Origin: Candidatus Eisenbacteria bacterium
Lineage (GTDB): Bacteria; Eisenbacteria; RBG-16-71-46; SZUA-252
Reading direction: 5' to 3'
DNA: 60,143 nt
Assembly (NCBI GenBank): GCA_005893275.1
Contig: VBOW01000070.1
Coordinates: 1 to 60,143, forward strand
Position numbers and translations under genes: made by a program. Of this stretch, positions 9,064-54,140 are shown one piece after another (positions within the stretch are counted from its first letter, which is position 1; every line of letters begins with the position of its first letter). The notes beneath the pieces were generated by a model, which was not told the DNA's origin, made no database searches, and was given only the letters and a program-made list of their open reading frames with translations.

Positions 9064-9557
9064 AGGTGGGACAGCTGAAGCCGGCGCGCGGAGCGACCCG
9101 CGCGAAGAAGCGCCGTGGATTGGGCCCGGCGTCGGGCCTGGGCGGAACCGCCGGGCGCGGCCACAAGGGTCAGAGAGCGCGCGCGGGCAAGGGCTCCAAG
9201 GTGCCGCGGTGGTTCGAAGGCGGACAGATGCCGATTCAGCGCCGGGTCCCCAAGCGTGGGTTCGTGAACCCGACGCGGGTGAGCTACCAGGCGGTGAACG
9301 TGGGGTCCCTGGAGCGCTTCGCCGCGGGCGAGGCTGTGAACCGCGAATCGCTGACGGCGAAACGCCTCATCGACCGCGGCGACCGGCCGGTCAAGCTCTT
9401 GGGGGAGGGGGAGGTCAAGGCGGCGTTTCAGATCACCGTCGACGCGGCGAGCGCCACGGCGCGGGCCAAGATCGAGGCCGCGGGCGGGACGATCACGCTT
9501 CCCGCGCCCAAGGCCCGTCGCGCGCGGGGCGAGCGTAAGACGAGAACCGGGGGCTGA
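9060..9557 (+). CDS. rplO: 50S ribosomal protein L15
   Basis: 165 residues. It starts with the glycine-rich extended part [20 protein letters not shown] and [20 protein letters not shown], then [14 protein letters not shown]. The C-terminal globular domain has [17 protein letters not shown] and ends in a short Arg-rich tail. L15 is a late assembly protein of the 50S. It is overlapped by rpmD and followed by secY after 8 nt. Confidence 0.96.
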
Positions 9558-15890: not shown

Positions 15891-17150
15891 GTGGCGCCGC
15901 AGAAAATCGGATCGATACGGACGGGCGGGAGGCTATCCCGCCCGATTTTTTTGGCGGCGATCGCCACGGCGGTCGTCCTGGCCGCGCTGGGCGTGCGTAC
16001 GACCGAGGCGGGTCGCCGCGATATCGCCGAGGAGACGCGCGCGATCTGGGTCGTGCGCTACTCGCTCAACACCATGGGGAGCGTGGACCGCGTGGTCGAG
16101 ATCGCGACCCAGATGAACGCGAACACGCTGCTCGTCCAGGTTCGCGGCCGCGGGGACGCCTACTACCAGTCGGATCTGGCGCCTCGGGGCGAGGAGCTCG
16201 AGGCGATGCCGCGCGATTACGATCCTTTCATGCGCATGATCGAGCGCGCCCACGCGCAGGGGCTCGAGGTGCAGGCCTGGATCAACGTGTATTTGGTGTG
16301 GTCGGCGGGCCGCCCGCCGCGGTCTCAGCTCCACGTCGTGAACGCGCATCCCGACTGGATCGCCGTGCGCTCCGACGGCAAGAAACTCGTCGAGATGGTC
16401 CCGGAGGAATTCGAGGAGGAGCGCGTCGAGGGGATGTATCTCGCGCCGGGAAACCCCGAGGTCCGCCGGCACCTGCGCGAGATCGTCCGCGAGATCGTCA
16501 CCCGCTATCCGGTCGACGGAATCCATCTCGATTACGTGCGGAATCCGGAGCCCGACGTAGGCTACGACACCGGTACCCGCACCGCGTTCATGCGCGAGTT
16601 CGGGGTCGATCCGGCCCAGATCGCCTCTCCCGATACCACCCTGCTTGCCGTGGTCGGCACGGAAGGCATCACGGACCTGAGGGCGCGCTGGATGCAGTGG
16701 CAGCGCGAGCAGGTGACGGCGCTCGTGCGCGACGTGAGGAACGACCTGGATCTGATCAACCCCAAGCTCAAGCTCACCGCCGCGGTGATCGCCGACCAGA
16801 CCGCGGCGCTGAACCGGTATCTGCAAGAGTGGCCGACCTGGCTCCGCACCGGGCTCCTGGATGCGGCGATCCCGATGGCCTACTCGACCAACACCACCAC
16901 GGTCGTGCGCCAGCTCTCGGCCGCGCGCTCGATCCCCACAGAGCATCATCTGTACGCCGGAATCGCGATCTATAACGAGGGGGCGCGAGATGCCGCGGAC
17001 AAGATCCGTCGCGCGCGGGAGCTCGGCGTGGACGGGATCGCGCTCTTCTCCTACGACGCGCTGGCCGCGCGCACCGGCTACGCGCGGGCGCTCAAGACGT
17101 GGTCGTTTCGCGAGCCGGCGGAGCCGAAGCCGATGGAGTGGAAAAAATGA
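15891..17150 (+). CDS. Secreted GHL10/DUF187-type glycosyl hydrolase-like protein
   Basis: Up to 419 residues. A hydrophobic segment (residues 19-40, IFLAAIATAVVLAALG) looks like a signal peptide. The body is a TIM-barrel of the glycoside-hydrolase-like 10 family (YngK type): EETRAIWVVRYSLNTM, ANTLLVQVRGRGDAYY, GLEVQAWINVYLVW, VDGIHLDYVRNPEPDVGYD, LDAAIPMAYSTN and GVDGIALFSYDAL. Such proteins act on cell-envelope or storage glycans; the substrate here is unknown. The GTG at 15891 has no ribosome-binding site and precedes the operon terminator; an in-frame TTG at 15951 would give a shorter protein still starting before the hydrophobic segment. Start therefore uncertain. Confidence 0.85.
   Translation: MAPQKIGSIRTGGRLSRPIFLAAIATAVVLAALGVRTTEAGRRDIAEETRAIWVVRYSLNTMGSVDRVVEIATQMNANTLLVQVRGRGDAYYQSDLAPRGEELEAMPRDYDPFMRMIERAHAQGLEVQAWINVYLVWSAGRPPRSQLHVVNAHPDWIAVRSDGKKLVEMVPEEFEEERVEGMYLAPGNPEVRRHLREIVREIVTRYPVDGIHLDYVRNPEPDVGYDTGTRTAFMREFGVDPAQIASPDTTLLAVVGTEGITDLRARWMQWQREQVTALVRDVRNDLDLINPKLKLTAAVIADQTAALNRYLQEWPTWLRTGLLDAAIPMAYSTNTTTVVRQLSAARSIPTEHHLYAGIAIYNEGARDAADKIRRARELGVDGIALFSYDALAARTGYARALKTWSFREPAEPKPMEWKK
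15922..15952 (+). terminator. Strong intrinsic terminator of the ribosomal operon
   Basis: CGGGCGGGA (15922-15930), loop GGCTA, TCCCGCCCG (15936-15944), then A and seven T (15946-15952). This is a perfect 9-bp GC-rich stem with a U-tract. It sits 50 nt after the rplQ stop. It also lies inside the first 20 codons of the next open frame (GTG at 15891), which matters for that gene's start and expression. Confidence 0.9.
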
Positions 17151-17153
17151 TGC

Positions 17154-17180
17154 GGCCCCGGTAGGCGGGCTACCGGGGCC
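17154..17180 (-). terminator. Bidirectional terminator between convergent genes
   Basis: Perfect 11-bp inverted repeat GGCCCCGGTAG / CTACCGGGGCC with loop GCGGG. On the minus strand the stem is followed by GCATCATTTTTT, a proper U-tract, so it should end transcription of the VOC gene at 17209-17682. On the plus strand no T-run follows, so termination of the GHL10 gene would rely on the stem alone. Confidence 0.8.
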
Positions 17181-17208
17181 GGCGTTCCAGTGCAGCGAGG
17201 GCGCTAGC

Positions 17209-17682
17209 TCACCTCGCTCCCGCCATCTGCTTCATGAACTCCTCCTGGCCCTTTTTCATCTCTTGCGGCGAGACATCTTTGACATGGGTCGCGATCGTCC
17301 ACTTGTGGCCGAAGGGATCCTCGAAGCTGCCCATGCGGTCCCCCCAGAACATGTCCGTGACGGGGTAGATCTGCTTGCCGCCCGCCTCGATCGCCTTCTT
17401 GAACGCTGAATCCACGTTCTCGACGTAGAGATAGAGGCTGATGGGACAGCCGCCGACAGTCTGCGCCGAACGTGAGCCCATTACCTCGTCGTTCATCATG
17501 ATGATGGAGTTTCCAATCTGGATCTCGGCGTGCATGATCTTGCCGTCGGGGCCCGGCATTCGCATTCGCTCCGTCGCGCCGAGCGCCTTCTTGTAGAACT
17601 CGATCACGCGCGGCGTGTCCTTCACGGTGATCGACGGCGTGACGCTGGTGTAGCCAGGTGGGATTGGTTTCACGTTGGCCAT
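17209..17682 (-). CDS. VOC-family (glyoxalase/PhnB-like) protein
   Basis: 157 residues from the ATG at 17682, chosen because GGAGGA lies 8 nt upstream; the frame is open far upstream but that part looks non-coding. The two beta-alpha-beta-beta-beta halves are visible: SVTPSITVKDTPRVIEFYKK with GKIMHAEIQIGNSIIMMNDE, then YLYVENVDSAFKKAIEAGGK and GDRMGSFEDPFGHKWTIATH. PhnB-like VOC proteins are common, mostly of unknown substrate. The C-terminus has an EEFMKQM helix, often seen in this subgroup. Convergent with the GHL10 gene. Confidence 0.85.
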   Translation of the reverse strand: MANVKPIPPGYTSVTPSITVKDTPRVIEFYKKALGATERMRMPGPDGKIMHAEIQIGNSIIMMNDEVMGSRSAQTVGGCPISLYLYVENVDSAFKKAIEAGGKQIYPVTDMFWGDRMGSFEDPFGHKWTIATHVKDVSPQEMKKGQEEFMKQMAGAR

Positions 17683-17970
17683 CGGCGGAATCCTCCATGA
17701 TTGAGTTGGGCGTATGTGCGGGGCGGTTGCGGCCGTCGAGAGACGGACGCTAATTATTACACCCTCCGAGATGAATTGCTCCATCGGGGAATCGCTTGTT
17801 TTGGAACCGCCGAAGCGGGCGGGGAAGTGCTTGCCCGGCGCAGGCGGCTTGGGGTAGAATTCGTGGCTCAAGTTCGGCGGCCGTAGGTCGATAAGCCGCT
17901 GAGCTTCAAGAGGTTGGGGGCCGCTTCCGAGATGTGTCGCGCCGGTCGCATTCGCCCCCTTCACTACCAT

Positions 17971-18045
17971 TCCTGAGTAGCTCAATGGCAGAGCATCCGG
18001 CTGTTAACCGGAGGGTTGTAGGTTCGAGTCCTACCTCAGGAGCCA
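17971..18045 (+). tRNA. tRNA-Asn (anticodon GTT)
   Basis: Full cloverleaf. Acceptor stem TCCTGAG (17971-17977) pairs with CTCAGGA (18035-18041); D arm TAGCTCAATGGCAGAGCA; anticodon stem CCGG/CCGG around loop CTGTTAA, giving anticodon GTT; T arm GTAGGTTCGAGTCCTAC. Discriminator G at 18042 and an encoded CCA (18043-18045). A 230-bp repeated element starts right at its 3' end. Confidence 0.96.
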
Positions 18046-18270
18046 GATCACGGAAACGCGAACTTTTGGGGTTCGCGGTGAAGATAGCGGCCCCGGTGGC
18101 GCGAGCTGCCGGGGCCTTCTTCTATCTGTGCACCAGGACACGGCTTGGCGCGACGCGGTGGCCCTAGTTGGGCAGTTGGCGGCCGGATGGCCTGTTGGTG
18201 CTCACCTCGAGCACTTGCGCCCGGCAGGGCCCGTCAGCCACAATGCGGCTCTCTTGATCTCTGGCTCTCT
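18040..18270 (+). repeat. Two-hairpin dispersed element, copy 1 (at tRNA-Asn 3' end)
   Basis: Shares its layout and many blocks with 46403-46632. Order: GAGCCAGATCAC; hairpin 1 CGCGAAC (18057-18063) / GTTCGCG (18071-18077); AGATAG; hairpin 2 GGCCCCGG (18089-18096) / CCGGGGCC (18109-18116) followed by TTCTTCTAT; a diverged middle; then the conserved block CCACAATGCGGCTCTCTTGA to CTCTGGCTCTCT. Hairpin 2 can act as tRNA-Asn terminator. The function of the far end is unknown. Confidence 0.75.
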
Positions 18271-24545: not shown

Positions 24546-26591
24546 TTAGCACCCTGCCCAGTTTTCTCCACGAACTGCATTTGGAAGGTGCCCCACTAAT
24601 TCGCGAAGGAGCGTAGAGGCAAAGAGGCGGGGCCGCCGGCCAGAGCCCCGCTCCGAGGCCCGAATGAAGAGGCCGATTTGTTTGGCTTCTCCGAAGGTCG
24701 TTGATCTGGCGCGCGAGAATATGAGTGTCTTGCGCGCCCGCGTCAGGGAGACATACAAAAGCCTGCGCTGCTCCTCAATGAATTCTTCTCGCGTTCCCGG
24801 GTATCCATCGCGGTATTCCCCGGGGATCGCTTCATCGCACATTCCGAGAATATAGACGTGCTCCGCTGTTACGCCCTTCGCTCCCCAGAGCGTTGTGACT
24901 TGGAGCTGAACCCCCGTCTTAGGTACGAACGGCTCACGCGTTGCTACCAGGTAGCGCATTTGCCTAATTGCGTAGCGCATTAGGTCGGATACGTCGGACT
25001 CTGGATGGTCCGCTAAGCGCTCTTGAGCGAGGGCAATCGTCTTATCGGTCAACAATTCTAGGTCGGCCCGAGCTGTTTCCGCGTCTCCGGTGGCGGTGCC
25101 GATCCACAGGTCGGGGCTGAACAGTGCGCGAATTCTCTCCTCGAAACTCACATGCGGTTCCACGAAGCCAGCCCGCAGCTCTTTGAACCGCTGGCCGCGA
25201 TCGAGGAGATTTGCACCTCCCTGACCAGGCGGTCGTTGGTCCGCCATCTGCACAACTTTCCTTTCAGTAATCGTATCGTTGCATGCGCGAAGGAAGCGGA
25301 GGTATGCAGGGGCGTTTCGCTTTGGAGCCTTGAAGTGCTCTCCGTCCGTTGAGTTCGCATACGCCAGCCACATGCGCCAAGTCACGGGGTCCGCATCGTG
25401 GAGAAGGGACGCGAACAGGAATGCCTCTCGCGTGGGCCAACTCTCCAGAATGCTCTCGGAGAAACTGAGATCGATACCCAGATCTCCCTGGATTTCCAGC
25501 ATGCGATCCCTAAGCCAGTAGCCAAACCTGCGCCGGGTCACCATTGCCAAGTGCCGTTCCGCGGGACATCGGCGGATGTTATCCACGATCGCCTTTGCCA
25601 TGCCGCGTGCCTCGTCTTGCGGGGTGGCCCAGGTGACGACGTGAATGTTGGCGGCCTGTTCGGATCCACCCGTCATCGGGGGTGGATAGTGTGACATGAG
25701 ATAGTTCGCTGCCACCACCACAGGGACCGGGCATCTCTGGCAGTCGGGTAGGTGCACGTCGCGCACTACCTGGCCCGCCTGGGCGGCCATAGCACCCAGC
25801 TTTTGTAAGCCCTCGCGATCGTTGCCGCGAAAGGCGTAGATGGACTGTCGCGGATCACCGAGGGCCAGGAACTGGCCTCCATCGCGGCGCAACCGGAAGA
25901 AGAGATTCTGTTCTCCGGGTGTGAGGTCCTGGAATTCATCAACGATGATGTACTTGAACTGAAGATCGGAGTAGTCACCCTGGTTGATGCTATCAAGCAA
26001 CAGTCCGGGCAACTCGCTTATCAACCTGGCTTGATGGCGCGTCAGCCATCGGAAGACCGCCTGCCAAAGGGCTACATCCTCGACGTGCCTTGCTTCATGA
26101 TCGTGGAGCGCCTGATTGGCGGCGGGCTGCCGACGGAGTCGCGCCCGGAGCTCCGGATGCTCCTCTAGCACGTCGTAGAGCATGGCCTCACGCTCATGAT
26201 CCATGAGGAGGCGGAGGTCGCCGCCGATAACGCCGAGACAGAGCGCGTGAACTGTGCGGATTGCGGGGTTACCATCATGCGGAGAAGCGGCCAGCGCCTC
26301 GTTGATGCCTGTCTCGAGCTGTTTCGCGATGACTCGATTGAACGCCACCACGAGGACCTCCCGCCCTCGCGCCGCCAACCCATCCGGGTGGAGGAGCCGT
26401 TGGACCCGGCGGACTAGGCCAAAGGTCTTCCCGGTCCCCGGTCCCGCCTCCACTCGCATGACGGATACATCATCATTGATCAGCGGAAGGGCTTGCGTAC
26501 CTTGAACACCCTGATTCCAGGGGCGCTCAAGGTCGTACTCTAGCCGTGGCGGCGGCTGCGAATCGGGATGCACGCTGGGAAGGGTAGGCAT
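24546..26591 (-). CDS. UvrD/Rep-like superfamily 1 helicase
   Basis: 681 residues. Walker A is AGPGTGKT (residues 49-56), motif II is IIVDEFQDLTPGEQ (DEFQD near 218-222), motif III is LALGDPRQSIYAFRGND (245-258), and the C-terminal motif VI is LLYVSLTRARK (613-621). Motif V lies near TTLWGAKGVTAEHVYILG. It should be an active 3'-5' DNA helicase-like ATPase. It lacks the extra nuclease domain of AddA/RecB. It is smaller than UvrD (about 720) and unrelated in length to PcrA. Divergently transcribed from the AlbA_2 gene with a 156-bp gap, a layout typical of mobile or defence modules. Start ATG 26591. Confidence 0.88.
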   Translation of the reverse strand: MPTLPSVHPDSQPPPRLEYDLERPWNQGVQGTQALPLINDDVSVMRVEAGPGTGKTFGLVRRVQRLLHPDGLAARGREVLVVAFNRVIAKQLETGINEALAASPHDGNPAIRTVHALCLGVIGGDLRLLMDHEREAMLYDVLEEHPELRARLRRQPAANQALHDHEARHVEDVALWQAVFRWLTRHQARLISELPGLLLDSINQGDYSDLQFKYIIVDEFQDLTPGEQNLFFRLRRDGGQFLALGDPRQSIYAFRGNDREGLQKLGAMAAQAGQVVRDVHLPDCQRCPVPVVVAANYLMSHYPPPMTGGSEQAANIHVVTWATPQDEARGMAKAIVDNIRRCPAERHLAMVTRRRFGYWLRDRMLEIQGDLGIDLSFSESILESWPTREAFLFASLLHDADPVTWRMWLAYANSTDGEHFKAPKRNAPAYLRFLRACNDTITERKVVQMADQRPPGQGGANLLDRGQRFKELRAGFVEPHVSFEERIRALFSPDLWIGTATGDAETARADLELLTDKTIALAQERLADHPESDVSDLMRYAIRQMRYLVATREPFVPKTGVQLQVTTLWGAKGVTAEHVYILGMCDEAIPGEYRDGYPGTREEFIEEQRRLLYVSLTRARKTLIFSRARSTTFGEAKQIGLFIRASERGSGRRPRLFASTLLRELVGHLPNAVRGENWAGC

Positions 26592-28157: not shown

Positions 28158-28370
28158 GACATACCGTGATAGGGAATGCCCGGCGAACCCCACTGCCGCC
28201 GCTGACGCGTGGGCCCGCACAAGCCTACCCCTGCAGCGTGAGTCGCCCCCTCGATGCTCCTCCGCAGGGACGAGGGGCTCCCCACACTGAATCGAAGGCC
28301 GAGTGCGCGGCTGCCGCCCCAACGAAGGCTAAGCGCGAGAGCCGCGACCTGGTATCCTGGGAACCCTCAC

Positions 28371-28612
28371 ATGGCCAAAGCCGAAGCTTCCGTCGAAGAA
28401 CTTGTTGGAATGATCGAACGCGGCGAGTTGCGTCTTCCGGAGATGCAGCGCCGCTACGTCTGGCGCTCCACCCGCGTGCGTGATCTGCTCGACTCGCTCT
28501 ATCGCGGGTACCCCTCGGGCGCGATCCTTCTCTGGGAGACCGACGAGGAGGTGCCGTTGCAGGAGATGGCCGTCACCCAACAGTCGAACCCCTACCAGAG
28601 CACGCGGCTCCT
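28371..28612 (+). pseudogene. Truncated DUF262 (GmrSD-like) gene
   Basis: From ATG 28371: MAKAEASVEELVGMIERGEL, RLPEMQRRYVWRSTRVRDLL, DSLYRGYPSGAILLWETDEE. This is the start of the DUF262 domain of GmrS-like restriction nucleases. The frame reaches LLLD at about 28610, where the conserved DGQQR catalytic motif should begin, but the sequence then turns into another gene. It is therefore cut exactly before the active site. No GmrD-like C-terminal part is seen. Confidence 0.7.
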
Positions 28613-28615
28613 ACT

Positions 28616-28717
28616 CGACTTGTGCAGGAAACGCTCGTTCGAGCCTTGAACCATATAGACACCTTCGAAGCAGACCGCCCTGGGGCGTTCCTCGCGTACC
28701 TGCGTCCCTTCTTATGA
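28616..28717 (+). pseudogene. ECF sigma-factor fragment
   Basis: In another frame from the DUF262 start: RLVQETLVRALNHIDTFEAD, RPGAFLAYLR, PFL, stop. It matches region 2 of ECF-type sigma factors (VQETLxRAL...FExxRxGAFLAYLR). No region 4 or start is present. The break with the DUF262 fragment is at about 28612-28616. Confidence 0.6.
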
Positions 28718-29981: not shown

Positions 29982-30273
29982 TGGTCTAGCTCAAAGCTCC
30001 GGGGCGCAGACCGAACAGGGAGGCATGGTCAATGCGCTTCATCCTGCTGAGTTCATTCCGCAGTCGCGCAACATCTAGTCATCCACGTTCAGTCAGTCTC
30101 TTCAGCCGTTCTGATTTCCTCCAGCACGCTTGCCTTGTTGCCGGCGTCTGGGTGGGGAGAATTCAAGCGGCGCTGATTCTCGGCGGCGTCGCGACACTTG
30201 AGGGCTCGCGCCTGCGCGGTCCTGAGAATTGACGCGCACAGTGGCGTGATGCCGCTGCGCATTGGAGGGGGTC
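29982..30273. other. Intergenic region before the FG-GAP gene
   Basis: No gene recognised. The last 11 bases (GGAGGGGGTC) give the ribosome-binding site of the next gene. No clear sigma-70 promoter could be assigned by eye. Confidence 0.45.
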
Positions 30274-33200
30274 ATGCAAGCCGATCTTCGGACCCGGATT
30301 GCTATCACCGCAGTAGTTCTGGCTTCTTCGGCTGTCCTTGCGGGCAATGCTCTCGCCATCTCGAGTCGGACGCTGATCGCGCCGACGGGCGCGGCGGCGG
30401 GTGATCGCTTCGGCTCTTCGGTGTCCTCAGCTGGGGACGTGAACGGGGACGGGTACGCCGACGTGATCGTGGGGGCCTACTTCAACGATGCCGGGGGCCC
30501 GGACGCGGGCCGGGCGTACGTGTACTACGGAGGTCCTGGAGCGGACGCGGTGACGGACCTGACGCTGACGGGCGCCGCGGCGTTTGACCGTTTCGGCACT
30601 TCGGTGTCCTCGGCGGGAGACGTGAACGGGGACGGGTACGCCGATGTGATCGTGGGGGCGCCTTTTAACGACACCGGGGGGGCAGAGGCGGGCCGTGCTT
30701 ACGTGTACTACGGGGGTCCTGGGGCGGACGCGGTGGCGGACCTGATCCTGACGGGCACCGCGGCGGGGGACAATTTCGGTGGTCGAGTGTCGTCAGCGGG
30801 GGACGTGACCGGGGACGGGTACGCCGATGCACTTCGTAACGACGCCGGGGGGACTGACGCGGGCCGGGCGTACGTGTACTACGGGGGTCCGGGTGCGGAC
30901 GCGGTGGCGGACCTGACGCTAACGGGCGCCGCGGCGGGTGATCTCTTCGGCAATTCGGTGTCCTCGGCGGGAGACGTAAATGGGGACGGGTACGCTGATG
31001 TGATCGTGGGGGCAGACTTCAACAATGCCGGGGGGTCCCACGCGGGCCGGGCGTACGTGTACTACGGGGGTCCGGGTGCGGACGCGGTGGCGGACCTGAC
31101 GCTGACCGGCGCTGCGGCGAATGATCTCTTCGGCGTTTCGGTGTCCTCGGCGGGGGACGTGAACGGGGATGAGTACGCCGATGTGATCGTGGGAGCAACC
31201 GGGGGGTTGGGCGCGGGCTGGGCGCAAGTCACAGCCATTTATCCCTACCAGGTTCTCTCCCCCAACGGAGGAGAGCAGTGGGTCGCGGGGCATCCGTCTA
31301 CGGTGCGCTGGCTCGGACATGACCCTGCCGATCTCGCCGTCTCCTCCGATGGAGGCTCAACGTGGAGCACAATGGCGAGCGGCGTCGGCGGGCTCGAGGA
31401 GAACGAGTTCACGCTGACCGCTCCCGGGCCTGCGACAGACCTGGCGAAGGTGAGGCTGACATACTCTGGTCTGGCTTCGAAGCGCTCGAATTCCGATTTG
31501 AGCGACGGGGTGTTCCGGATCGTGCTCCCGGTGGTGCCTCCGGCGGCGGCATATCGCCTTCAGCGGACATTCGTAGGCGCCGCGGGGTCTGACTGGTTCG
31601 GCTGGTCGGTGTCCTCGGCGGGGGACATGAACGGGGACGGGTACGCGGATGTGATCGTCGGGGCGTACTTTAACGATGCCGGAGGAGCGAACGCGGGCCG
31701 AGCATACGTGTACTACGGGGGCCCGGGGGCAGACGCCGTGGCGGACCTGACGCTGACGGGCGCCGCGGCGGGTGATGAGTTCGGCATTTCGGTGTCCTCG
31801 GCTGGGGACGTGAACGGGGACGGGTACGCCGACGTGATCGTGGGGGCGGACTTGAACGCTGCCGGGGGGCCGGGCGCGGGCCGGGCGTACGTGTTCTACG
31901 GGGGTCCGGGGGCGGACGCGGTGGCGGACCTGACGCTGACGGGCGCCGCGGCGGGTGATGCCTTCGGCAATTCGGTGTCCTCGGCCGGGGACGTGAACGG
32001 GGACGGGTACGCCGACGTGATCGTAGGAGCGTACCTAAATGATGCCGGGGGGACGGACGCGGGCCGGGCATACGTCTACTACGGGGGCCCGGGGGCGGAC
32101 GCGGTGGCGGACCTGACGCTGACGGGCGCCGCGGCGGGCGATAGCTTCGGCTATTCGGTGTCCTCGGCGGGAGATGTGAACGGGGACAGTTACGCCGATG
32201 TGATCGTAGGAGCGTACCTAAATGATGCCGGAGGGGCGGACGCGGGCCGGGCGTACGTGTACTACGGGGGGCCTGGGGCGGACGCGGTGGCGGACCTGAC
32301 GCTGACGGGCGCCGTGGCTAATGATCGCTTCAGCTGGGCGGTGTCCTCGGCGGGGGACGTGAACGGGGATGGCTACGCCGACGTGATCGTGGGAGCGTTC
32401 GGGAACTCTGCCGGGGGGGCGCAGGCCGGCCGCGCCTACGTGTACTACGGGGGTCCGGGGGCGGACGCGGTGGCGGACCTGACGCTGACTGGCGCCGCGG
32501 CGTTTGACTGGTTCGGCTATCGGGTGTCCTCGGCGGGGGACGTGAATGGGGACGGGTACGCCGATGTGATCGTAGGGGCGAACGCGAACGACGCTGGGGG
32601 GGCGAACGCGGGCCGGGCGTACGTGTACTACGGGGGTCCGGGGGCGGACGCAGTAGCGGACCTGACGCTGACAGGCGCCGCTGCCGGTGATGCCTTCGGC
32701 ATTTCGGTGTCCTCGGCTGGGGACGTGAACGGGGACGGGTATGCCGATGTGATCGTGGGGGCGTACCAGAACGATGCCGGGGGGGGCGACGCGGGCGCAG
32801 CGTACCTCTACGACCTCAACCGCTACTTCGTGCTCTCCCCCAATGGGGGCGAGACGTGGAACGTGGGCGCCGCGAAGAGCATTTCGTGGCTCGGGGCCGA
32901 GCCGGCGGATGTCCTGCTCTCCACGGACGGCGGTAAGACCTATGATCTTCTCCGCTCCGGCGTGGGCGGTGCGCCTCAAAACACAATCCCGCTTCGCGTC
33001 CCCCACTCACCGACCAAATTCGCGCGCGTCAGAATCCTACCGAGTCTCTCGACCGTGGGCGGCCAGGACGAGTCCGACTCGACCTTCACGATTCAGACTT
33101 CGGTGGCGTTGTTGGCGCTCTTGGCGGCACCCGCGCCGAACGGCGCCCGCGGCGCAGTAATCTCCTGGCAGACCGACCCAGGGCCGGAGGATCTAGCGGG

Positions 33201-33660
33201 CTACAGACTCGAGCACGCGTTGGGCGGCGCCGAGTGGCGGACGCTCGTCACGCTGACGCGCGAGACGAGCTATTTGGATCCCTCCTCAGGCCCCGCGACC
33301 CGATATCGTCTCTTCGCGGTGAACGGGTTCGGCGAGGAGCTCTTACTAGGCGAAACCTTTTTCCGCCCTGCAGCCCCGCTCGCCGCTTGGCCGTTGCCGT
33401 ATCGCGGTGGGAATCTCTCGATCGCGTTTGCGACGCACGGCGCGCTTGGCGGCGGACCGGGCTCCGCGGAGGTATCGCTCTACGATGTCTCGGGCCGACT
33501 GGTGCGTACGATCGCGAGAGGGCAGTACCCCGCGGGTTATCAATCCGCGATTTGGGATGGCCGCGACCTACAGGGGAGGAGGGCGGCCTCAGGCATTTAC
33601 TTCCTGCGCTCTACGACAGCGGGTGAGGATCGGGCGATCAAGTTTGTCGTTGTTCGTTGA
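30274..33660 (+). CDS. Large secreted FG-GAP (integrin-alpha-like) repeat protein
   Basis: 1128 residues from ATG 30274 (GGAGGGGG upstream). Signal peptide RIAITAVVLASSAVLAGNALA. It has about twelve FG-GAP repeats of about 63 residues: GDxFGxSVSSAGDVNGDGYA, DVIVGAYxNDAGG, AGRAYVYYGGPGADAVADLT. Each has a DVNGDG calcium-binding loop. Five repeats, then a beta domain (VLSPNGGEQW), seven repeats, a second such domain (VLSPNGGETW), an FN3-like part and a C-terminal FlgD-like sorting tail (VSLYDVSGRLVRTIARGQYP, SGIYFLRSTTAG). Repeat 3 lacks its middle (DVTGDGYADALRNDAGG) and repeat 5 is cut. Likely a surface-exposed adhesin-like protein. DNA repeats of about 189 bp are nearly identical. Confidence 0.9.
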   Translation: MQADLRTRIAITAVVLASSAVLAGNALAISSRTLIAPTGAAAGDRFGSSVSSAGDVNGDGYADVIVGAYFNDAGGPDAGRAYVYYGGPGADAVTDLTLTGAAAFDRFGTSVSSAGDVNGDGYADVIVGAPFNDTGGAEAGRAYVYYGGPGADAVADLILTGTAAGDNFGGRVSSAGDVTGDGYADALRNDAGGTDAGRAYVYYGGPGADAVADLTLTGAAAGDLFGNSVSSAGDVNGDGYADVIVGADFNNAGGSHAGRAYVYYGGPGADAVADLTLTGAAANDLFGVSVSSAGDVNGDEYADVIVGATGGLGAGWAQVTAIYPYQVLSPNGGEQWVAGHPSTVRWLGHDPADLAVSSDGGSTWSTMASGVGGLEENEFTLTAPGPATDLAKVRLTYSGLASKRSNSDLSDGVFRIVLPVVPPAAAYRLQRTFVGAAGSDWFGWSVSSAGDMNGDGYADVIVGAYFNDAGGANAGRAYVYYGGPGADAVADLTLTGAAAGDEFGISVSSAGDVNGDGYADVIVGADLNAAGGPGAGRAYVFYGGPGADAVADLTLTGAAAGDAFGNSVSSAGDVNGDGYADVIVGAYLNDAGGTDAGRAYVYYGGPGADAVADLTLTGAAAGDSFGYSVSSAGDVNGDSYADVIVGAYLNDAGGADAGRAYVYYGGPGADAVADLTLTGAVANDRFSWAVSSAGDVNGDGYADVIVGAFGNSAGGAQAGRAYVYYGGPGADAVADLTLTGAAAFDWFGYRVSSAGDVNGDGYADVIVGANANDAGGANAGRAYVYYGGPGADAVADLTLTGAAAGDAFGISVSSAGDVNGDGYADVIVGAYQNDAGGGDAGAAYLYDLNRYFVLSPNGGETWNVGAAKSISWLGAEPADVLLSTDGGKTYDLLRSGVGGAPQNTIPLRVPHSPTKFARVRILPSLSTVGGQDESDSTFTIQTSVALLALLAAPAPNGARGAVISWQTDPGPEDLAGYRLEHALGGAEWRTLVTLTRETSYLDPSSGPATRYRLFAVNGFGEELLLGETFFRPAAPLAAWPLPYRGGNLSIAFATHGALGGGPGSAEVSLYDVSGRLVRTIARGQYPAGYQSAIWDGRDLQGRRAASGIYFLRSTTAGEDRAIKFVVVR

Positions 33661-37406: not shown

Positions 37407-38339
37407 TTATGACAGGCTCCCCGTCGTGTTGGGGTGAACTTCTGCCTCGCTTCGCTTGAACTCGACCTCGTGGGAAGCCCTCAGAGCCACGATCGCTCCT
37501 CGGCCCATCCGGGATATCCCATGGCGGGACTCGGCGCCGATCTCCGCTGGCGTCCAGTAGCCCAGACTGCTGTGCGGCCGCTGCTCATTGTACTCGCGCC
37601 GCCACTGCTCGATCACGATCTTTGCCTCTCGGAGATTCGAGAACCACTCCGCATCCAGCTTCTCCCCTCGGAACGTCCCGTTGAAGCTCTCGACGCTCCC
37701 GTTCTGCCACGGTTTCCCCGGCGCGATCGTCGCCGTCTCGCTGTGATTCATCATCACCCAGATCTTCAGCGCCCGAGCGATGAACTCCGGCCCATTGTCG
37801 CTCCTCAAGACCGAAGGCGCACCGTGCTTCTCGAACAGTCCCTCGAGCACCGCGATCACCCGCGACGCATTCAGGGAACTCGCCACCTCGATCGCCAGGC
37901 ACTCCCGCGTCCACTCATCCACCACCGTCAGCGCCTTCAGCGTCTGCCCGTTCGCGCAGGTGTCGTGCACAAAATCATAGGCCCATACCTGGTTCGGCCC
38001 CGTCGGCGTCAAGACCCTCGGGATCCCCGTGCGGATCTTCCGACGCTTCCTTCTCCGAACGCAAAGCCCCAACGCTCTCCACACCCGCCGCACTCGCTTA
38101 CGGTTTACCCGCCGACCCTCGCGACGCAGAAGCGCCCACGCGAACCGGTGCCCGTACCGAGGATGGCGTTCCGAGATCTTCTCTAACACCGACCCCAACT
38201 CCGCGTCTCGATCCGGCATCCGGCTCTCGTAGCGAAGGGCCGACCGGCTCACCTGAAGCAGCGCACAGGCCCGGCGGACCGACGCCCCAAATCCCACGGC
38301 GTAGTCCACCTGATCGCGGCGAGCCCGTGCGCTCACCAT
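37407..38339 (-). CDS. IS3-family transposase OrfB (DDE domain)
   Basis: 310 residues in the second frame of the element. The catalytic triad is seen as VWAYDFVHD (Asp near 122), LRSDNGPEF (Asp near 181) and GSVESFNGTFR (Glu near 217), with 35 residues between the last two (DD35E). An N-terminal helix-turn-helix-like part (HPRYGHRFAWALLRREGRRV) precedes it. It is made as a fusion after a frameshift; the ATG at 38339 lies just at the slippery run. Confidence 0.9.
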   Translation of the reverse strand: MVSARARRDQVDYAVGFGASVRRACALLQVSRSALRYESRMPDRDAELGSVLEKISERHPRYGHRFAWALLRREGRRVNRKRVRRVWRALGLCVRRRKRRKIRTGIPRVLTPTGPNQVWAYDFVHDTCANGQTLKALTVVDEWTRECLAIEVASSLNASRVIAVLEGLFEKHGAPSVLRSDNGPEFIARALKIWVMMNHSETATIAPGKPWQNGSVESFNGTFRGEKLDAEWFSNLREAKIVIEQWRREYNEQRPHSSLGYWTPAEIGAESRHGISRMGRGAIVALRASHEVEFKRSEAEVHPNTTGSLS

Positions 38340-45337: not shown

Positions 45338-46285
45338 ATGAGGAAGACATCGGTGTTATTCCTAGCTTGTGCGGTGATCGTCATGGTCACTGCGCAGAAC
45401 CCAGCCAAAGCGCAGTATCTGTACGTCGATAGCAACGGCGATGGCCTCTCTACGGCGAGCGACCGGCTAAACGCGACCGGCCCGACAAGGGTCTCGATTT
45501 GGCTTAGAACCGATACGAACAAGGACGGATCCAAAGCCGTGTACGCGCGTTCCCCATCTCAACCGCTGACGATGTTCTCCTATGAATTCATCCTTCATGC
45601 GGCCGGCGGGACGGTCAAATGGGGCGCGTATACCAATCTCATCGCCACCATGGGGGACGGATTTGGAGAATTCAGCAACGCCACCGATTTCTACACCGGG
45701 CACGGGGGCCTGACACCGCTGCCGCCCGGGAAGCACCAGCTCGGGACCCTAACAGTGACGGCCGCCTCAGGTGACCCCCGCCTCTCGTTTGCATCAACGA
45801 CGTCGATCCGCCCCGACCTCCACACCTCATTCGGATCGTTGTGCATCGGGAAGGACGGCGACCACACGCTCAAGTATACGGATGATCCGTCACAGGTGGG
45901 CGTTGCTCCCCAGGAGGTCGCTGGCGACTGGACCGGGGCTGACGGCACGAACGCTCCTGCCGGCGCGGCACTCGCGTCCGGCTTGGAATCGAGTTCCCAA
46001 AGCCAAGCACCGCACCCCGATGGAGTCTCGCCAAACCCACTAAACCCGCAAGGGTGGATCACATTTACGATGAAGCTCCCTGGATTCGCACGTGTTACTC
46101 TCTTCGACACGAACGGACGTCTCGTGAGGACACTTCTGGACAGGCAGGATCTCGGCCAGGGTACTCAATCGGTGCGCATCGACGGGCTGAATAGACAAGG
46201 AAAGCGTCTTGGTTCCGGCGTGTACTTCTACAGGATCGAGACCTCGGAGGGGATGAAACAAGGGAGGTGTGTAGTTCTGAAATAG
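45338..46285 (+). CDS. Secreted protein with FlgD-like/Por-type tail
   Basis: 315 residues. Signal VLFLACAVIVMVTAQNPAKA. The mature part starts YLYVDSNGDGLSTASDRLNA, then a beta-sandwich cohesin-like domain (VSIWLRTDTNKDGSKAVYAR, FSYEFILHAAGGTVKWG). Low-complexity linker, then the sorting tail GFARVTLFDTNGRLVRTLLD, GSGVYFYRIETSEGMKQGRC. Follows the subtilase by 46 nt, with the good ribosome-binding site GGGAGG 9-14 nt upstream of the ATG; the two may be cotranscribed. A possible dockerin-cohesin-like pairing with the subtilase is only a hypothesis. Confidence 0.75.
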   Translation: MRKTSVLFLACAVIVMVTAQNPAKAQYLYVDSNGDGLSTASDRLNATGPTRVSIWLRTDTNKDGSKAVYARSPSQPLTMFSYEFILHAAGGTVKWGAYTNLIATMGDGFGEFSNATDFYTGHGGLTPLPPGKHQLGTLTVTAASGDPRLSFASTTSIRPDLHTSFGSLCIGKDGDHTLKYTDDPSQVGVAPQEVAGDWTGADGTNAPAGAALASGLESSSQSQAPHPDGVSPNPLNPQGWITFTMKLPGFARVTLFDTNGRLVRTLLDRQDLGQGTQSVRIDGLNRQGKRLGSGVYFYRIETSEGMKQGRCVVLK

Positions 46286-46402
46286 CGCAATACCTGCCCC
46301 TCAATCCGATGGGGTCCGATCTGTGGATGGTCCCTCAAGGAAAGTCGGCGGACGGCAGAGCCTCAAGCCCGAGTAAGCGAGTTTGAAGAGGGTTACGTTC
46401 GG

Positions 46403-46632
46403 GGAGCCAGATCACTGAAACGCGAACTCTTGGGTTCGCGGTGGAGATAGGGGCCCCGGCGCGGGAACGCATCGGGGCCTTCACGTATCTACGCGTCAGG
46501 GCGCGGCTTGGCGCAGTGTAGCGGCACGAGTGGGTTTGTTGGCCGCGAAACGGCGTTCCGATGCAGCCTCGGGGACTTGCTACCGGAAGGGCCCATCCGC
46601 CACAATGCGGCTCTCTTGATCTCTGGCTCTCT
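46403..46632 (+). repeat. Two-hairpin dispersed element, copy 2
   Basis: Same order as copy 1 at 18040: GAGCCAGATCACTGAAACG; hairpin 1 CGCGAAC (46421-46427) / GTTCGCG (46434-46440); AGATAG; hairpin 2 GGCCCCG (46452-46458) / CGGGGCC (46473-46479); middle; conserved CCACAATGCGGCTCTCTTGA...CTCTGGCTCTCT end. The stems are kept while the loops differ. Preceded by GTTACGTTCGGG, which is shared with copy 4 at 53.09 kb. Not next to a tRNA here. Confidence 0.75.
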
Positions 46633-46681
46633 CGTCACCTGAGTGGGTGGGTGCGCGGACCGGAGCGCGATCGGAGGTAGG

Positions 46682-47356
46682 GTGAATAGACTCGCACTCT
46701 TGGTCATCGGGTTGACCCTGGCGCCGACTCATGCCAGCGCCCAGCCGATAGCCGTACCCGACGTGGGTTCGGCCGGGGTCGGTGTCTTCGCCCACCGGAC
46801 TTATCGGGATTTCAAGCTGTCGAATGGAGACCGGTGGAGTGCACGCTGGACCCGTAATGGCCTACTCGTTCATGCGACGGTTGCGCACCGTGTCGTATTC
46901 ATGGCGACGGGCAGTTATGAACGCCCGTATACGGATTCGCGCTATCCCGGCAGGATCTACCAAGGGCTAGGGATCGGTGGAGGTGCTACCTTCTACCCCG
47001 TCATCGCGGGCGCTTATCGCATCGGGGCCAGCTTCAGGTGGTATCGGCACACCTGGCTCGATCAGTCCATACAGCACTTCGACAAGGCGGCCGAGGGCAC
47101 CTCAGTTGCCCTGCAGGTCGAACGAGGATTCAAGAGGAGATTACTGAATGCACTCGTTTGGGTCGCGCCTGCATACCTGAGGGACCGCACATCCGAACAT
47201 CGCGGCATCTATCCTGAATCCGCACTCGCGTCCAGTAACAACCTCGGCGCTATATGCGGGGCGAGCCTCGCCCTGTGGGGGCACCTGGACCCGTACGTGC
47301 AGCTTGGAGTCGTGGAACATCTGCAGACTCAGGTTGGGGTCAGCTACATCTACTGA
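46682..47356 (+). CDS. Outer-membrane beta-barrel-like secreted protein
   Basis: 224 residues from the GTG at 46682 with GGAGGTAG just upstream. Signal LALLVIGLTLAPTHASAQ. The rest alternates polar and hydrophobic residues in strand-like blocks (VGVFAHRTYRDFKLSNGDRW, GLGIGGGATFYPVIAGAYRI) and ends VQLGVVEHLQTQVGVSYIY, with a final aromatic residue, as is usual in outer-membrane barrels. No family recognised. Confidence 0.65.
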   Translation: MNRLALLVIGLTLAPTHASAQPIAVPDVGSAGVGVFAHRTYRDFKLSNGDRWSARWTRNGLLVHATVAHRVVFMATGSYERPYTDSRYPGRIYQGLGIGGGATFYPVIAGAYRIGASFRWYRHTWLDQSIQHFDKAAEGTSVALQVERGFKRRLLNALVWVAPAYLRDRTSEHRGIYPESALASSNNLGAICGASLALWGHLDPYVQLGVVEHLQTQVGVSYIY

Positions 47357-47360
47357 GAGA

Positions 47361-47443
47361 ACCCCAGATCACTGAAACGGGAACTTTCCGGTTCGCGGTC
47401 GAGATAGGTGGCCCCGGTGCCGAGAGCTGCCGGGGTCCAGTGC
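47361..47443 (+). repeat. Two-hairpin dispersed element, copy 3 (short)
   Basis: CCCCAGATCACTGAAAC, hairpin 1 CGGGAAC (47378-47384) / GTTCGCG (47391-47397) with one mismatch, GAGATAG, hairpin 2 GGCCCCGG (47410-47417) / CCGGGGTC (47430-47437), with one G-U pair. It lacks the conserved distal block of copies 1 and 2. Located directly after the barrel gene's stop, where it can act as terminator. Confidence 0.7.
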
Positions 47444-47536
47444 TTTGGCCCTTGGTATGCGATATTGAGGCCCTAGGCGGCCCCGCGGCGGTCGTGGTGG
47501 GGGTCACGCTGCCCTGGCAGAACGCCGGCGAGGTGG

Positions 47537-49436: not shown

Positions 49437-49880
49437 TCACGTCTTGATCCCGCGGAGCGCCGCGTAGAGCTCCTCGTCAGAAGGATGAGTGTAAATGGTG
49501 GTCGTGAGCGGACTAGAGTGGCGAGCGAAGCGCTGGGTCAGATAAAGGTCACGCGTGGCCCGGTAGACGTTCGTGATCGCCGAATGCCGGAGCGCATGGA
49601 AGGGATAGACGGACTCGAATCTCGCCGCTGCCTGCCACTCCCGAAACACGAACTGGATCCTCCAAGCGGTCCCCGCCTTCCCGACGCTGACGTCGCCCAC
49701 ATTGAGGCCTGCGAGCTCACGGAGCCTGAGCCCGGTGCTGAGGGCCAGCGACAGGAGCGCCCGGTCTCTAGGGGAGCCGTGGGCACGAACTGCGCGTAGA
49801 AGGCGCCGCTGCTCGGCCTTGGTGAGCGTCTTGGGTGTGGCGAACTTCGGGTACATGCGGCCCCTTTTCGGCAGGCCCAT
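49437..49880 (-). pseudogene. Tyrosine recombinase (integrase) with internal deletion
   Basis: 147 residues. Family parts: STGLRLRELAGL (catalytic Arg I near 52), FHALRHSAITNVYRATRD (His near 95, Arg near 98), RFARHSSPLTTTIYTHPSDE (His near 121, Tyr near 130). The spacing of the last four residues equals that of XerD (R-23-H, H-9-Y). However, Arg I to the HxxR His is only 43 residues versus about 96 in XerD, so about 50 residues, including the beta-hairpin Lys, are missing (GKAGTAWRI directly joins QFVFREWQ). No core-binding N-terminal domain. Likely inactive. Homologue of the remnant at 29559. Confidence 0.8.
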
Positions 49881-51045: not shown

Positions 51046-51756
51046 CTACAATTCGATCTCGGCCACGGCCCGCGCCACCCAACGGTCGGTCCGGGGCGTG
51101 AGGCCGATTCCGGTGCCGAACTTGAGCGTCAGCTCTTTGGGAAGGGCGAACCAGACTTGAGGAAACACGATGGCGGTGTGCTCGGATGGATCGCCCTTGA
51201 GCTCGGTGCCCACGCGCACGACGGTCTCGGCCGGGTAGCGGACGCCCAGAGCGTAGGCGAATGTGATATCCCGCTCGCCTGAGAGCCTGACGGGGAAATC
51301 GAGGTTCAGGGTGGTGTTGAGATCGCGCGAGACATCGCGTGAGAGTACGAGGCGAGGGGTGAGCACGTCCTCGTTCTCTACCCCCGTGGAAGCCCGCGTC
51401 TCGTGCTCGTACTCCGTGGATGCGGCGACGTCCAGCGGCCACCTTCCCTCCTCGGCGAATCGAGCGCGGGTTTCGATGCGCAGCCGTCCGAACTGGAGAC
51501 CGTCACCCCGGTGGAAGATCTGTGCGGCCCCATCCGCCATCCAGTGGGATGAGATCCCGTACTCGAATGCGCCCGTATACCAGCCGGCCGTCCGGTGGTC
51601 CGTGTCGCGGCGAGCTTCTGCCCATCCCTCGATTTCGACCTCGTGGCGGCCGAGGGTGAGGTAGACGAAGGTCTCGTCCAGATAGTCGTCCCGATGAGCG
51701 AAGGTCACGGACGGGAACAACAGGAGAGTTACCACTACCGCAAACGCGCCCTTCAT
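51046..51756 (-). CDS. Paralogue A: secreted beta-rich protein of unknown function
   Basis: 236 residues. Signal GAFAVVVTLLLFPSVTFAHR. Mature part starts DDYLDETFVYLTLGRHEVEI, EGWAEARRDTDHRT and is strand-rich, ending FGTGIGLTPRTDRWVARAVA, EIEL. It is like an outer-membrane barrel or a periplasmic protein. Paralogue B (53214-53924) differs at 26 of 236 positions by my count. Both flank the metzincin-like gene on the same strand. Function unknown. Confidence 0.75.
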   Translation of the reverse strand: MKGAFAVVVTLLLFPSVTFAHRDDYLDETFVYLTLGRHEVEIEGWAEARRDTDHRTAGWYTGAFEYGISSHWMADGAAQIFHRGDGLQFGRLRIETRARFAEEGRWPLDVAASTEYEHETRASTGVENEDVLTPRLVLSRDVSRDLNTTLNLDFPVRLSGERDITFAYALGVRYPAETVVRVGTELKGDPSEHTAIVFPQVWFALPKELTLKFGTGIGLTPRTDRWVARAVAEIEL

Positions 51757-51861: not shown

Positions 51862-52674
51862 CTACTGCGCCCAAATCACGCGCGTGAGCACCTTGTTTCC
51901 ACTGCCGAGATCTCGCTCGTAAACATCCGCACGACCGTTCTCAAAATGGACGGGGTTCCCCCAGGCATTGGGACCTCCCATGTCCTCATCCAGATCCTGG
52001 CCCGACGAGACGGGGGCGCTGGCGACGGCGGCGGCACCGTCCGAGTGACTGTAGATAATTACTAGCTCGTCGTAGTCGTGCTGGTTCGGCATGGTGTTGT
52101 TGCTGGGGTCCGCCGAATAGTCCATGCACGAGCCTCTACCGCAGGCGTCAAGCAAATCGGCGTTGTTGAAGTCCTCGTCCTGGTGGGCGAGACCGAACTC
52201 GTGCCCGACTTCCTGGTCCATCACGAAGCTGTGCCAGGCGGGTGTATTGTACTGAGGCGTGTCGAAATAAGTGTCGTTCACTCTGACCGTGCCCTGCGTG
52301 ATGTGAACACCACTGATCCAGATCTGGGCGATGCCGAGCCATCCGTTGTTGCCGTAGCTCCCGTTGCACACCTCAACCCGTCCCGCGGTAGGCCTACACC
52401 TCTTGCCATGACTGCCGCCCGCCGCGACGGTGCACCGTATTGGATTCTGTGGGTTATTGCAGGCCCCGGACGTGATGCTCCAATCCGACGCCGCCGTGGC
52501 CAGATAGGGGGTCCAGTTGGCTGAGAGGTTATCGCCAAGCGTGACGGTGAACGGGTTGCTGGCCCGACTCCAGTGATAGCCGTTCCAAGAGTGGGTGGCG
52601 TTCGCAGGGCCTGCAGCGATGAAAAGCGTTCCAGAGAGAGCCGCAAACGTGAACAGTCCGAGCATTCTCGACAT
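51862..52674 (-). CDS. Metzincin (matrixin)-like secreted protease with Gln zinc-site variant
   Basis: 270 residues from ATG 52674, with GAGGAGG 6 nt upstream. Signal GLFTFAALSGTLFIAAGPAN. Domain: ATAASDWSITSGACNNP, IAQIWISGVHITQGTVRVND, then the zinc-site-like sequence MDQEVGHEFGLAHQDEDF (about residues 152-169). The normal HExxHxxGxxH has Gln at the first position (QEVGHEFGLAH). A Met-turn-like GSCMDYSADPSNN follows. So it is metzincin-fold-like; activity is uncertain. I believe that other bacterial proteins with QExxHxxGLxHQ exist, but could not check. It lies between two paralogues. Confidence 0.8.
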   Translation of the reverse strand: MSRMLGLFTFAALSGTLFIAAGPANATHSWNGYHWSRASNPFTVTLGDNLSANWTPYLATAASDWSITSGACNNPQNPIRCTVAAGGSHGKRCRPTAGRVEVCNGSYGNNGWLGIAQIWISGVHITQGTVRVNDTYFDTPQYNTPAWHSFVMDQEVGHEFGLAHQDEDFNNADLLDACGRGSCMDYSADPSNNTMPNQHDYDELVIIYSHSDGAAAVASAPVSSGQDLDEDMGGPNAWGNPVHFENGRADVYERDLGSGNKVLTRVIWAQ

Positions 52675-53098
52675 GGGGAACCTCCTCACGGTAATCTGTC
52701 AGCGTCACAGGTCGACCTTTCGAGGTGTCGTGGCTCGCGTTGTGACAACGGCCCGATGCGCTCTTGCGCATCACTTCACACGGGTGCCCTCCTTGTTCAC
52801 CTCCTTTCCAGTACGCCATAAATGCGCGAGCTGGAGAGATGTTTCCGCCGGGGTGCGTTACCAACTTCCAGCGCGCAACCAACGAGAACCGCTCGCGGGG
52901 CGTTGTGGAACGTCAAGGTGTCTGGACCGCCGCCTGGCCACCGCCCGGGTTCCCGATGAAGTCGGCGACCACCATGCCGAATTCCGGAAGCATGACCGAG
53001 ATCTGGGCGAGAATCCTACGAAGGAGTGCCTGCGGAGTCACATCGGCGCATATCGGAATTTTGTGTCAGGCAACGTCTGACAGCGACAGGGGTACGTT
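52675..53098. other. Non-coding stretch upstream of the metzincin-like gene
   Basis: No gene recognised. It includes the ribosome-binding site of the metzincin-like gene, and ends with GTACGTTCGGGGAGCCAG at about 53091, shared with copy 2 of the dispersed element. Confidence 0.45.
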
Positions 53099-53170
53099 CG
53101 GGGAGCCAGCAAGAGAGAGCCTTCGCCAAGCGAAGGCTGTAGATAGCGGCCGGGGCTTTGGAGCGCTTCT
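53099..53170 (+). repeat. Dispersed element copy 4, with a different first hairpin
   Basis: GGGAGCCAG, then a perfect 9-bp hairpin AGCCTTCGC (53118-53126), loop CAA, GCGAAGGCT (53130-53138), then GTAGATAGCGGCCGGGGC. It keeps the overall layout (GAGCCAG, hairpin 1, AGATAG, GC-rich part) but hairpin 1 has a wholly different sequence. The second hairpin is short. It lies downstream of the paralogue B stop on the same side. Confidence 0.55.
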
Positions 53171-53213: not shown

Positions 53214-53924
53214 CTACAATTCGATCTCGGCCACGGCGCGCGCGACCCAACGGTCGGTCCGGGACGTGAGGCCGATCCCAGTGCCGAACTTCAGCGTCAG
53301 CCCCTTAGGAAGAGCGAACCAGGCCTGAGGGAAGACCGTTGCCCTGTGCTCGGAGGGATCACCCTTGAGCTCGGTGCCGACGCGCACGACGGTCTCCGCC
53401 GGGTAGCGAACGCCCAGGGCGTAGGCGAACGTGGCTTCTCGGGCGCCTGAGAGCCTGACGGGAAAATCGAGGTTCAGGGTAGTGTTGAGTTCACGCGACA
53501 CGTCGCGCGAGAGTACGAGGCGGGGGGTGAGGACATCTTCGCTCTCTCCCCCTGTGGAAGCACGCGTCTCGTGCTCAAACTCCGTGGATGCGGCGACGTC
53601 CAGTGGCCACCTTCCCTCCTCGGCGAATCGAGCGCGGGTTTCGAGGCGCAGCCGCCCGAACTGAAACTCGTCACCCCGGTGGAGGATCTGTGCGGCCCCA
53701 TCCGCCATCCAGTGCGATGAGATCCCATACTCGAATGCGCCCGTATACCAGCCGACCGTCCGGTGGTCCGTGTCGCGGCGGGCCTCTGCCCACCCCTCGA
53801 TTTCGACCTCGTGGCGGCCGAGGGTGACGTAAACAAAAGTCTCGTCCAGATAATCGTCCCGATGAGCGCACGCCACGGATGGCAGCAACAGCAGGATCAC
53901 CAATGTCGCAAACGCGACCCGCAT
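53214..53924 (-). CDS. Paralogue B: secreted beta-rich protein of unknown function
   Basis: 236 residues from ATG 53924. Signal RVAFATLVILLLLPSVACAH. The same domain as paralogue A (DDYLDETFVYVTLGRHEVEI, GIGLTSRTDRWVARAVAEIE). The open frame continues upstream without signal, and is not used. A hairpin (53954-53981) lies in the leader. The near-identity with A also covers flanking DNA (CGGCGCTCCGACACGTCCGA at 51026 and 53193), so the copy is a recent duplication. Function unknown. Confidence 0.75.
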   Translation of the reverse strand: MRVAFATLVILLLLPSVACAHRDDYLDETFVYVTLGRHEVEIEGWAEARRDTDHRTVGWYTGAFEYGISSHWMADGAAQILHRGDEFQFGRLRLETRARFAEEGRWPLDVAASTEFEHETRASTGGESEDVLTPRLVLSRDVSRELNTTLNLDFPVRLSGAREATFAYALGVRYPAETVVRVGTELKGDPSEHRATVFPQAWFALPKGLTLKFGTGIGLTSRTDRWVARAVAEIEL

Positions 53925-53953
53925 ATCGGTCCTCGCCGGGAGGAACTTGCGAG

Positions 53954-53981
53954 AAGGGTGGCCGATGTTTGGGCCACCCTT
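53954..53981 (-). promoter_or_regulatory. Leader hairpin before paralogue B
   Basis: Perfect 10-bp stem AAGGGTGGCC (53954-53963) / GGCCACCCTT (53972-53981), loop GATGTTTG, about 30 nt before the ATG at 53924 on the minus strand. It may be the terminator of an upstream transcript or an attenuator-like leader. No ORF runs through it on the minus strand in a coding way. Confidence 0.45.
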
Positions 53982-54140
53982 CCATTTCGCCCGCGGGGTC
54001 CGCGCCCCTTCCATGGGGGAGGCATGGCGGGTTTCTGAGCTGCAAGGAGCGAACCCCGGAGGGACAGGGCCAGGATACTCCGGTTCCCAGGCCTGTGGGG
54101 CGGTCCTCTTTCCGGGCGTCGGATCGCCGACGGTTGTCGG

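Follow-up and report, generated by a model that had tools for sequence, protein, structure and literature searches.

The locus downstream of the tRNA-Asn gene in the 60,143-nucleotide stretch of DNA analysed here (hereafter the window; contig C70 of the 2.88-Mb genome, G000, of a little-studied soil bacterium of Candidatus Eisenbacteria) is probably a decayed tandem array of genomic islands which targeted the 3' end of this tRNA gene, the copies of its repeat being attachment-site junctions. The right end of each island would be a conserved arm, GGGTTACGTTCGGGGAGCCA, and the left end a core, hairpin 1, a linker, hairpin 2 and, in some copies, a promoter-like block. Strand exchange within the core, GGAGCCA, would have joined a left end either to the tRNA gene (site w1) or to the right arm of a neighbouring island (w2), and w4 would be the join between the arm and the sequence beyond the array. 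The left end of an island would keep tRNA-Asn intact, with hairpin 2 probably providing it with a new terminator, and the promoter-like block may serve the first gene of the island. The islands of this genus would have decayed, lost their integration genes and become immobile; in related lineages, the ends accompany genes for a large serine recombinase and a DUF2924 protein, the proposed integrase.

The tRNA-Asn gene (anticodon GTT, CCA encoded), the putative target and left anchor of the array, was located at 17971-18045 on the forward strand (ARAGORN; Rfam RF00005, 71.9 bits), in agreement with the preliminary description, made from the letters of the window, that the first copy of the repeat starts at a tRNA 3' end. 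The 10 kb upstream of tRNA-Asn were syntenic in sister genomes, and genes 7.9-18 kb upstream were kept in G000, G001, G003 and G006, with variable sequence downstream. As in a genomic island, conserved upstream sequence was combined with broken synteny downstream of tRNA-Asn in four genomes of the family, and w1 abutted the 3' end of the intact tRNA gene at GGAGCCA, likewise in G001 and G003. An empty site was not seen in sister genomes of the same genus.

Four sites, all on the forward strand, were named w1 (18039), w2 (46390), w3 (47359) and w4 (53089). Sites w1, w2 and w3 were homologous far beyond chance, whereas w4 was only half homologous. Of the four copies originally counted, the one placed at 53099 resembles the others in its arm and core (53089-53108) and in AGATAG alone. 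The block behind tRNA-Asn recurred at 46403-46632 (77 % identity over 234 nt) and at 47364-47435 (85 % over 73 nt), and CCAGATCACTGAAACGCGAAC had three matches in the window and none in 100 shuffles. Of the elements described as common, the copy at 47361 had lost the GGAGC part; it also lacked the distal block, of which 33 nt were identical between 18238 and 46600, a match that did not occur in shuffles. A conserved arm to the left of GAGCCA, common to copies 2 and 4 (GGGTTACGTTCGG), had been missed. Elsewhere in the same genome the hairpin part occurred in full once more, on contig C56 (C56:1860-1938), and sister genomes had more copies.

The left part of a junction took one of two forms. In one it was the tRNA-Asn gene, ending in CTCAGGAGCCA, with the 7-bp core as its last bases (18039-18045); in the other it was the arm, which the core likewise closes. 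The core was followed, in order, by GATCAC and hairpin 1, the linker AGATAG, the GC-rich hairpin 2 and about 100 bases; distal to these, at w1 and w2, was a promoter-like block, TTGCNN-N18-CACAAT, with a CU-rich leader. At w1, the core at 18039-18045 is the proposed crossover region of attL, with hairpin 1 (CGCGAAC/GTTCGCG) at 18057-18077, hairpin 2, a terminator-type stem followed by TTCTTCT, at 18089-18116, and the promoter-like block (TTGCGC-N18-CACAAT and leader, identified by inspection) at 18215-18270. At w2, arm and core occupied 46390-46409 (0 matches in 100 shuffles) and would be the right end of the preceding island; folding placed the two hairpins in 46421-46479 (46421-46440 and 46452-46479), and the promoter-like block (TTGCTA-N18-CACAAT and leader) was found at 46577-46632. 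The part of this block at 46600 lay 43 bases before a single ORF (46643-47356, forward strand, 237 aa, no Pfam match), which fills the space between w2 and w3 as a one-gene unit. Similar blocks were found 72-76 bases before ORFs in sister genomes (L038:3350, L121:13571); a sigma-70 scan did not call the block at w1 or w2. Site w3 (47359-47446; model R1, 82.7 bits) was a degenerate copy which starts 3 bp past the stop codon of the ORF and has its hairpin 2 at 47410-47437. At w4, arm and core (53089-53108) had one mismatch and were followed by an unrelated perfect hairpin, AGCCTTCGC-CAA-GCGAAGGCT, with AGATAG (53118-53146), which may be a native terminator that was displaced or the end of a further island.

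The flanks of the copies were exchanged at the core. The left sides of w1 and w2 differed up to GGAGCCA and their right sides matched, and the same was seen in sister genomes. At w4 the reverse was found: positions 52401-53109 of the window were 94 % identical over 710 nt to a locus of G003 (L038), through GGGGAGCCAG, and the right sides were unrelated. The same left flank was present in G006, where homology stopped 20 bases earlier, at CAGCGACAG, directly in front of the arm. That both flanks are swapped at one and the same short core favours site-specific recombination, since duplications should not repeatedly end at a single position. The sequence common to target and sites was short, 7-8 bp (GGAGCCA) recurring in the genus, the arm not being tRNA-like, and about 30 nt in G010.

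Related Ca. Eisenbacteria had further copies downstream of the same tRNA-Asn, in a single orientation. In G006, in which tRNA-Asn is at C9:146104-146030, three arms were found 9 to 28 kb behind it (137384, 126708 and 118413), all in the orientation of the tRNA, and contig C71 of G003 had two arms in one orientation. G010, which belongs to another family, contained about 30 nt of the tRNA-Asn 3' end without the 5' half, followed by a diverged hairpin pair; such a displaced 3' fragment is the usual trace of integration into a tRNA gene. The preliminary description had left the choice between a mobile repeat targeting tRNA ends, an attachment site and an RNA element. An attachment site fits best because of the exchange point at GGAGCCA on both sides, the single orientation downstream of tRNA-Asn and the displaced tRNA-Asn fragment; the copies are composite junctions, not one RNA element.

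When one genome per species was scanned, the exact arm with its core turned up in seven: those of the Eisenbacteria sister and of two Latescibacterota, and single genomes labelled Hebobacterum, Brocadiia, Gemmatimonadota and Armatimonadota; by a rough estimate about four chance matches were expected, and the seven are nevertheless regarded as related because all share further bases leftward. In the Gemmatimonadota, Armatimonadota and Hebobacterum genomes the part left of the core was a 57-base hairpin repeat, and the sequence preceding the core in G063, G064 and G060 folded as CCCCAAA-TGC-AACCCTCC...GGAGGGTT-ACG-TTYGGGG. A Gemmatimonadota locus had, within 11 kb, three occurrences of a repeat, up to 138 bases long, with arm and core at its end (L125:6931-7012, 9221-9357 and 17575-17712); an Armatimonadota genome had it as well, with 86 % identity. 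The arm was not near a located tRNA-Asn in the Gemmatimonadota, Armatimonadota, Hebobacterum and Brocadiia genomes or in one of the Latescibacterota, so either the tRNA is not the sole setting or arrays have moved. That genomes attributed to several phyla have the arm points to an exchange of blocks across a wide taxonomic distance, or to binning errors; the genomes used were mostly fragmented draft assemblies, whose contigs may be misbinned. Among plasmids and phages no similarity to the element was found, and the matches of the 33-nt arm were confined to phages and did not exceed chance level.

Both hairpins were predicted to be stable (z -4.5 and -4.2), with the exception of hairpin 2 of w4, which was unconvincing (z -1.6). 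In the genus set of eight copies the stems paired in 96.7 % of cells, and three pairs had double changes. For hairpin 2, an alignment of 17 copies from several families and one other phylum, hand-cut around the hairpin in a way that favours pairing, gave 92.6 % of cells paired and six pairs with double changes. These double changes amounted to 29 cells against 11.5 in shuffles, with 0 of 500 shuffles reaching 29, and pairing dropped to 29-56 % in slid controls. Hairpin 1 had one double change within the genus (CG to AU) and differed freely in sequence between families. Selection for structure, as had been put forward on the basis of conserved stems, was thus borne out for hairpin 2 across families and only weakly for hairpin 1. 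The example chosen for it, the different but perfect hairpin of copy 4, was not valid: homology ends at the core, so this hairpin was rejected as a homologue of hairpin 1, is unalignable with the others and has to be kept out of the covariation analysis. The covariation of hairpin 2 is real and consistent with a terminator. Hairpin 2 of w1 was called terminator-like by a scan, model matches elsewhere in the class mostly resembled generic terminators, and stems of this type also end ordinary genes, as at 17153-17181, 3 bp past the stop codon of the gene at 15891-17150.

Such stems at ordinary genes would also be expected if the copies were a terminator-promoter module spread by homologous recombination or segmental duplication, the copy at tRNA-Asn being incidental and site-specific integration playing no part. 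Two-hairpin copies at gene ends without arm or core (G003:C92 and G008:C250) and promoter-like blocks found alone are in line with this explanation. It is nevertheless unlikely, as one 7-bp position is the swap point for left and right flanks alike, the arms found behind this tRNA in several genomes all point the same way, and G010 carries the tRNA 3' fragment. Even less probable is a structured small RNA or tRNA-linked RNA element selected for its fold, with mobility secondary, to which the two stable hairpins, the covariation of hairpin 2 and a linker similar across families (AGATAG or GTTAACG) might point. Such an element would leave both the swap point and the arm unexplained, hairpin 2 is in keeping with a terminator, and hairpin 1 is free between families, with its one double change within the genus. 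An Rfam 15 scan of the window and seven related loci placed only the tRNA above gathering score; the statement that no named family has this form therefore holds with respect to Rfam, but tandem tRNA-anchored islands are a known type of locus.

The least credible alternative, to which we assign a very low probability, is an integron-like cassette array with the arm region as an attC-like folded site after each gene. In its favour, most of the arm copies listed stand behind a gene of the same strand, and the region left of the core folds in G063, G064 and G060. However, the integron integrase model TIGR02249 was not above cut-off in G000, G001, G003, G006 and G007, GTTRRRY/RYYYAAC boxes were absent by inspection (the outer box reads GTTYGGG), units were up to 28 kb long and the array begins at a tRNA. 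A dif-like reading of the arm was also dropped, as the spacer, compared by eye, does not fit.

For the array of tRNA-targeting islands, an integrase gene beside the sites was sought and none was found in the genus, where serine recombinases were looked for in the loci analysed. The ORFs scanned in the w1-w2 and w2-w3 units, a selection made by a simple coding-bias rule, contained no site-specific recombinase, only an IS3-type transposase. Tyrosine recombinases were rejected as the integrase: an Xer-like pair common to the family, pseudogenes and isolated matches were found, none of them linked to the sites. One such pseudogene, a catalytic domain with an internal deletion (PF00589), lies at 49437-49880 on the reverse strand and has broken relatives in G003:C96. 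An IS110/IS1111 element was likewise discarded, as a PF02371 transposase beside one arm copy (L130) did not generalise; in the 11 genomes searched this transposase was absent except from G059.

The best candidate was found outside the genus. An IMG/VR contig (L142) carried an arm-plus-left-end junction followed by genes for a DUF2924 protein and a large serine recombinase, and this recombinase was 71 % identical to one located 1.06 kb behind tRNA-Asn in G017. DUF2924 and serine recombinase genes were found 0.6-6.3 kb behind tRNA-Asn in G017 and G014 (the G014 relative at 6.3 kb), and on the other strand 3.7-5.7 kb behind tRNA-Asn in G059, a Latescibacterota genome in which the relative lies at 3.7-5.4 kb. 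The presence of the same module behind tRNA-Asn in G017, G014 and G059 led us to drop the idea that the L142 recombinase belongs to a provirus module unrelated to the sites. A second IMG/VR contig (L193) had a junction 3.3 kb before such a recombinase gene, and no such recombinase was found behind tRNA-Asn in stretches of 3-15 kb from 11 genomes with an ordinary terminator there. The large serine recombinase with DUF2924 is thus a putative integrase, and its link to the sites is suggestive rather than proven, since members of the same recombinase family also occur on contigs that lack both arm and tRNA, and plasmids and phages commonly encode similar proteins.

A wider interpretation, speculative and with the balance against it, is that of an element family across candidate phyla, in which a DUF2924-linked large serine recombinase would enter tRNA-Asn with a left end composed of a half-site, a conserved terminator and a promoter. 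Stacked units would then insulate the tRNA and bring their own transcription unit, forming an integron-like array without an integron integrase.

The tandem ssrA islands of Dehalococcoides are stacked downstream of one structural RNA gene and bounded by direct repeats of its 3' end, with a conserved non-matching motif upstream of each repeat; many lack an integration module, and where one exists the serine recombinase is by attL (PMC3146451). The layout described here is the same, including the non-target motif beside the repeat and a serine recombinase near attL (here a candidate, from related lineages). The two differ in the target (tRNA-Asn instead of tmRNA), in the length of the target-shared repeat (7-8 bp instead of 20), in the association of the candidate recombinase with DUF2924 and in the left end, where the present sites carry two hairpins and, in some copies, a promoter-like block. 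Cis-mobilizable elements (CIMEs), which arise by accretion, are att-flanked tandem units that have lost integration and transfer genes (PMC5704250), a description that may also apply to the units here; CIMEs, however, are defined from ICE or IME relatives which keep the genes, whereas no functional partner was found in this genus. As in fGI-2 of the Methylophilaceae, in which the tRNA-Lys 3' end is both target and recurring tag of the units (PMC10872708), and in the islands of the Islander resource, a tRNA 3' end would serve as target and recurring tag. According to the latter, integration at tRNA and tmRNA genes is usually catalysed by tyrosine integrases (PMC4383910), whereas the candidate here is a serine recombinase. 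Integron cassette arrays similarly have repeated sites between genes, in one orientation and some folding into hairpins, but the genus lacks IntI and attC boxes and its array is anchored on a tRNA. No description of this junction family and its likely integrase was found in the literature among open-licence papers; the type of arrangement is known, while this particular family and integrase appear not to have been described.

With the junctions recognised, an anonymous repeat becomes a marker which delimits blocks of accessory genes in Ca. Eisenbacteria, a phylum for which metagenomes are the main source of knowledge, and the candidate integrase offered is testable. If a serine recombinase does use tRNA-Asn, it would add to a target class in which tyrosine integrases are the usual catalysts, and arm and core would be a usable attachment pair.

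The IS3-type transposase (rve, HTH_21) is encoded at 37407-38339 on the reverse strand, within the first island. The product of 24546-26591 (reverse strand) is a UvrD-like helicase similar to GajB from the Gabija defence system (PADLOC, E 8e-32), and a 131-aa ORF at 28254-28649 (forward strand), probably a fragment, matched the N-terminal part of the PADLOC candidates PDC-M55C and HEC-05 (E 8e-19). Site w4 is flanked by two paralogues on the reverse strand (51046-51756 and 53214-54176), 89 % identical over 236 aa, with similarity running beyond the gene ends. The forward-strand genes at 30262-33660 and 45338-46285 encode proteins of a secreted type that have FG-GAP repeats and C-terminal domains similar to FlgD; such proteins recur in the islands of several genomes.
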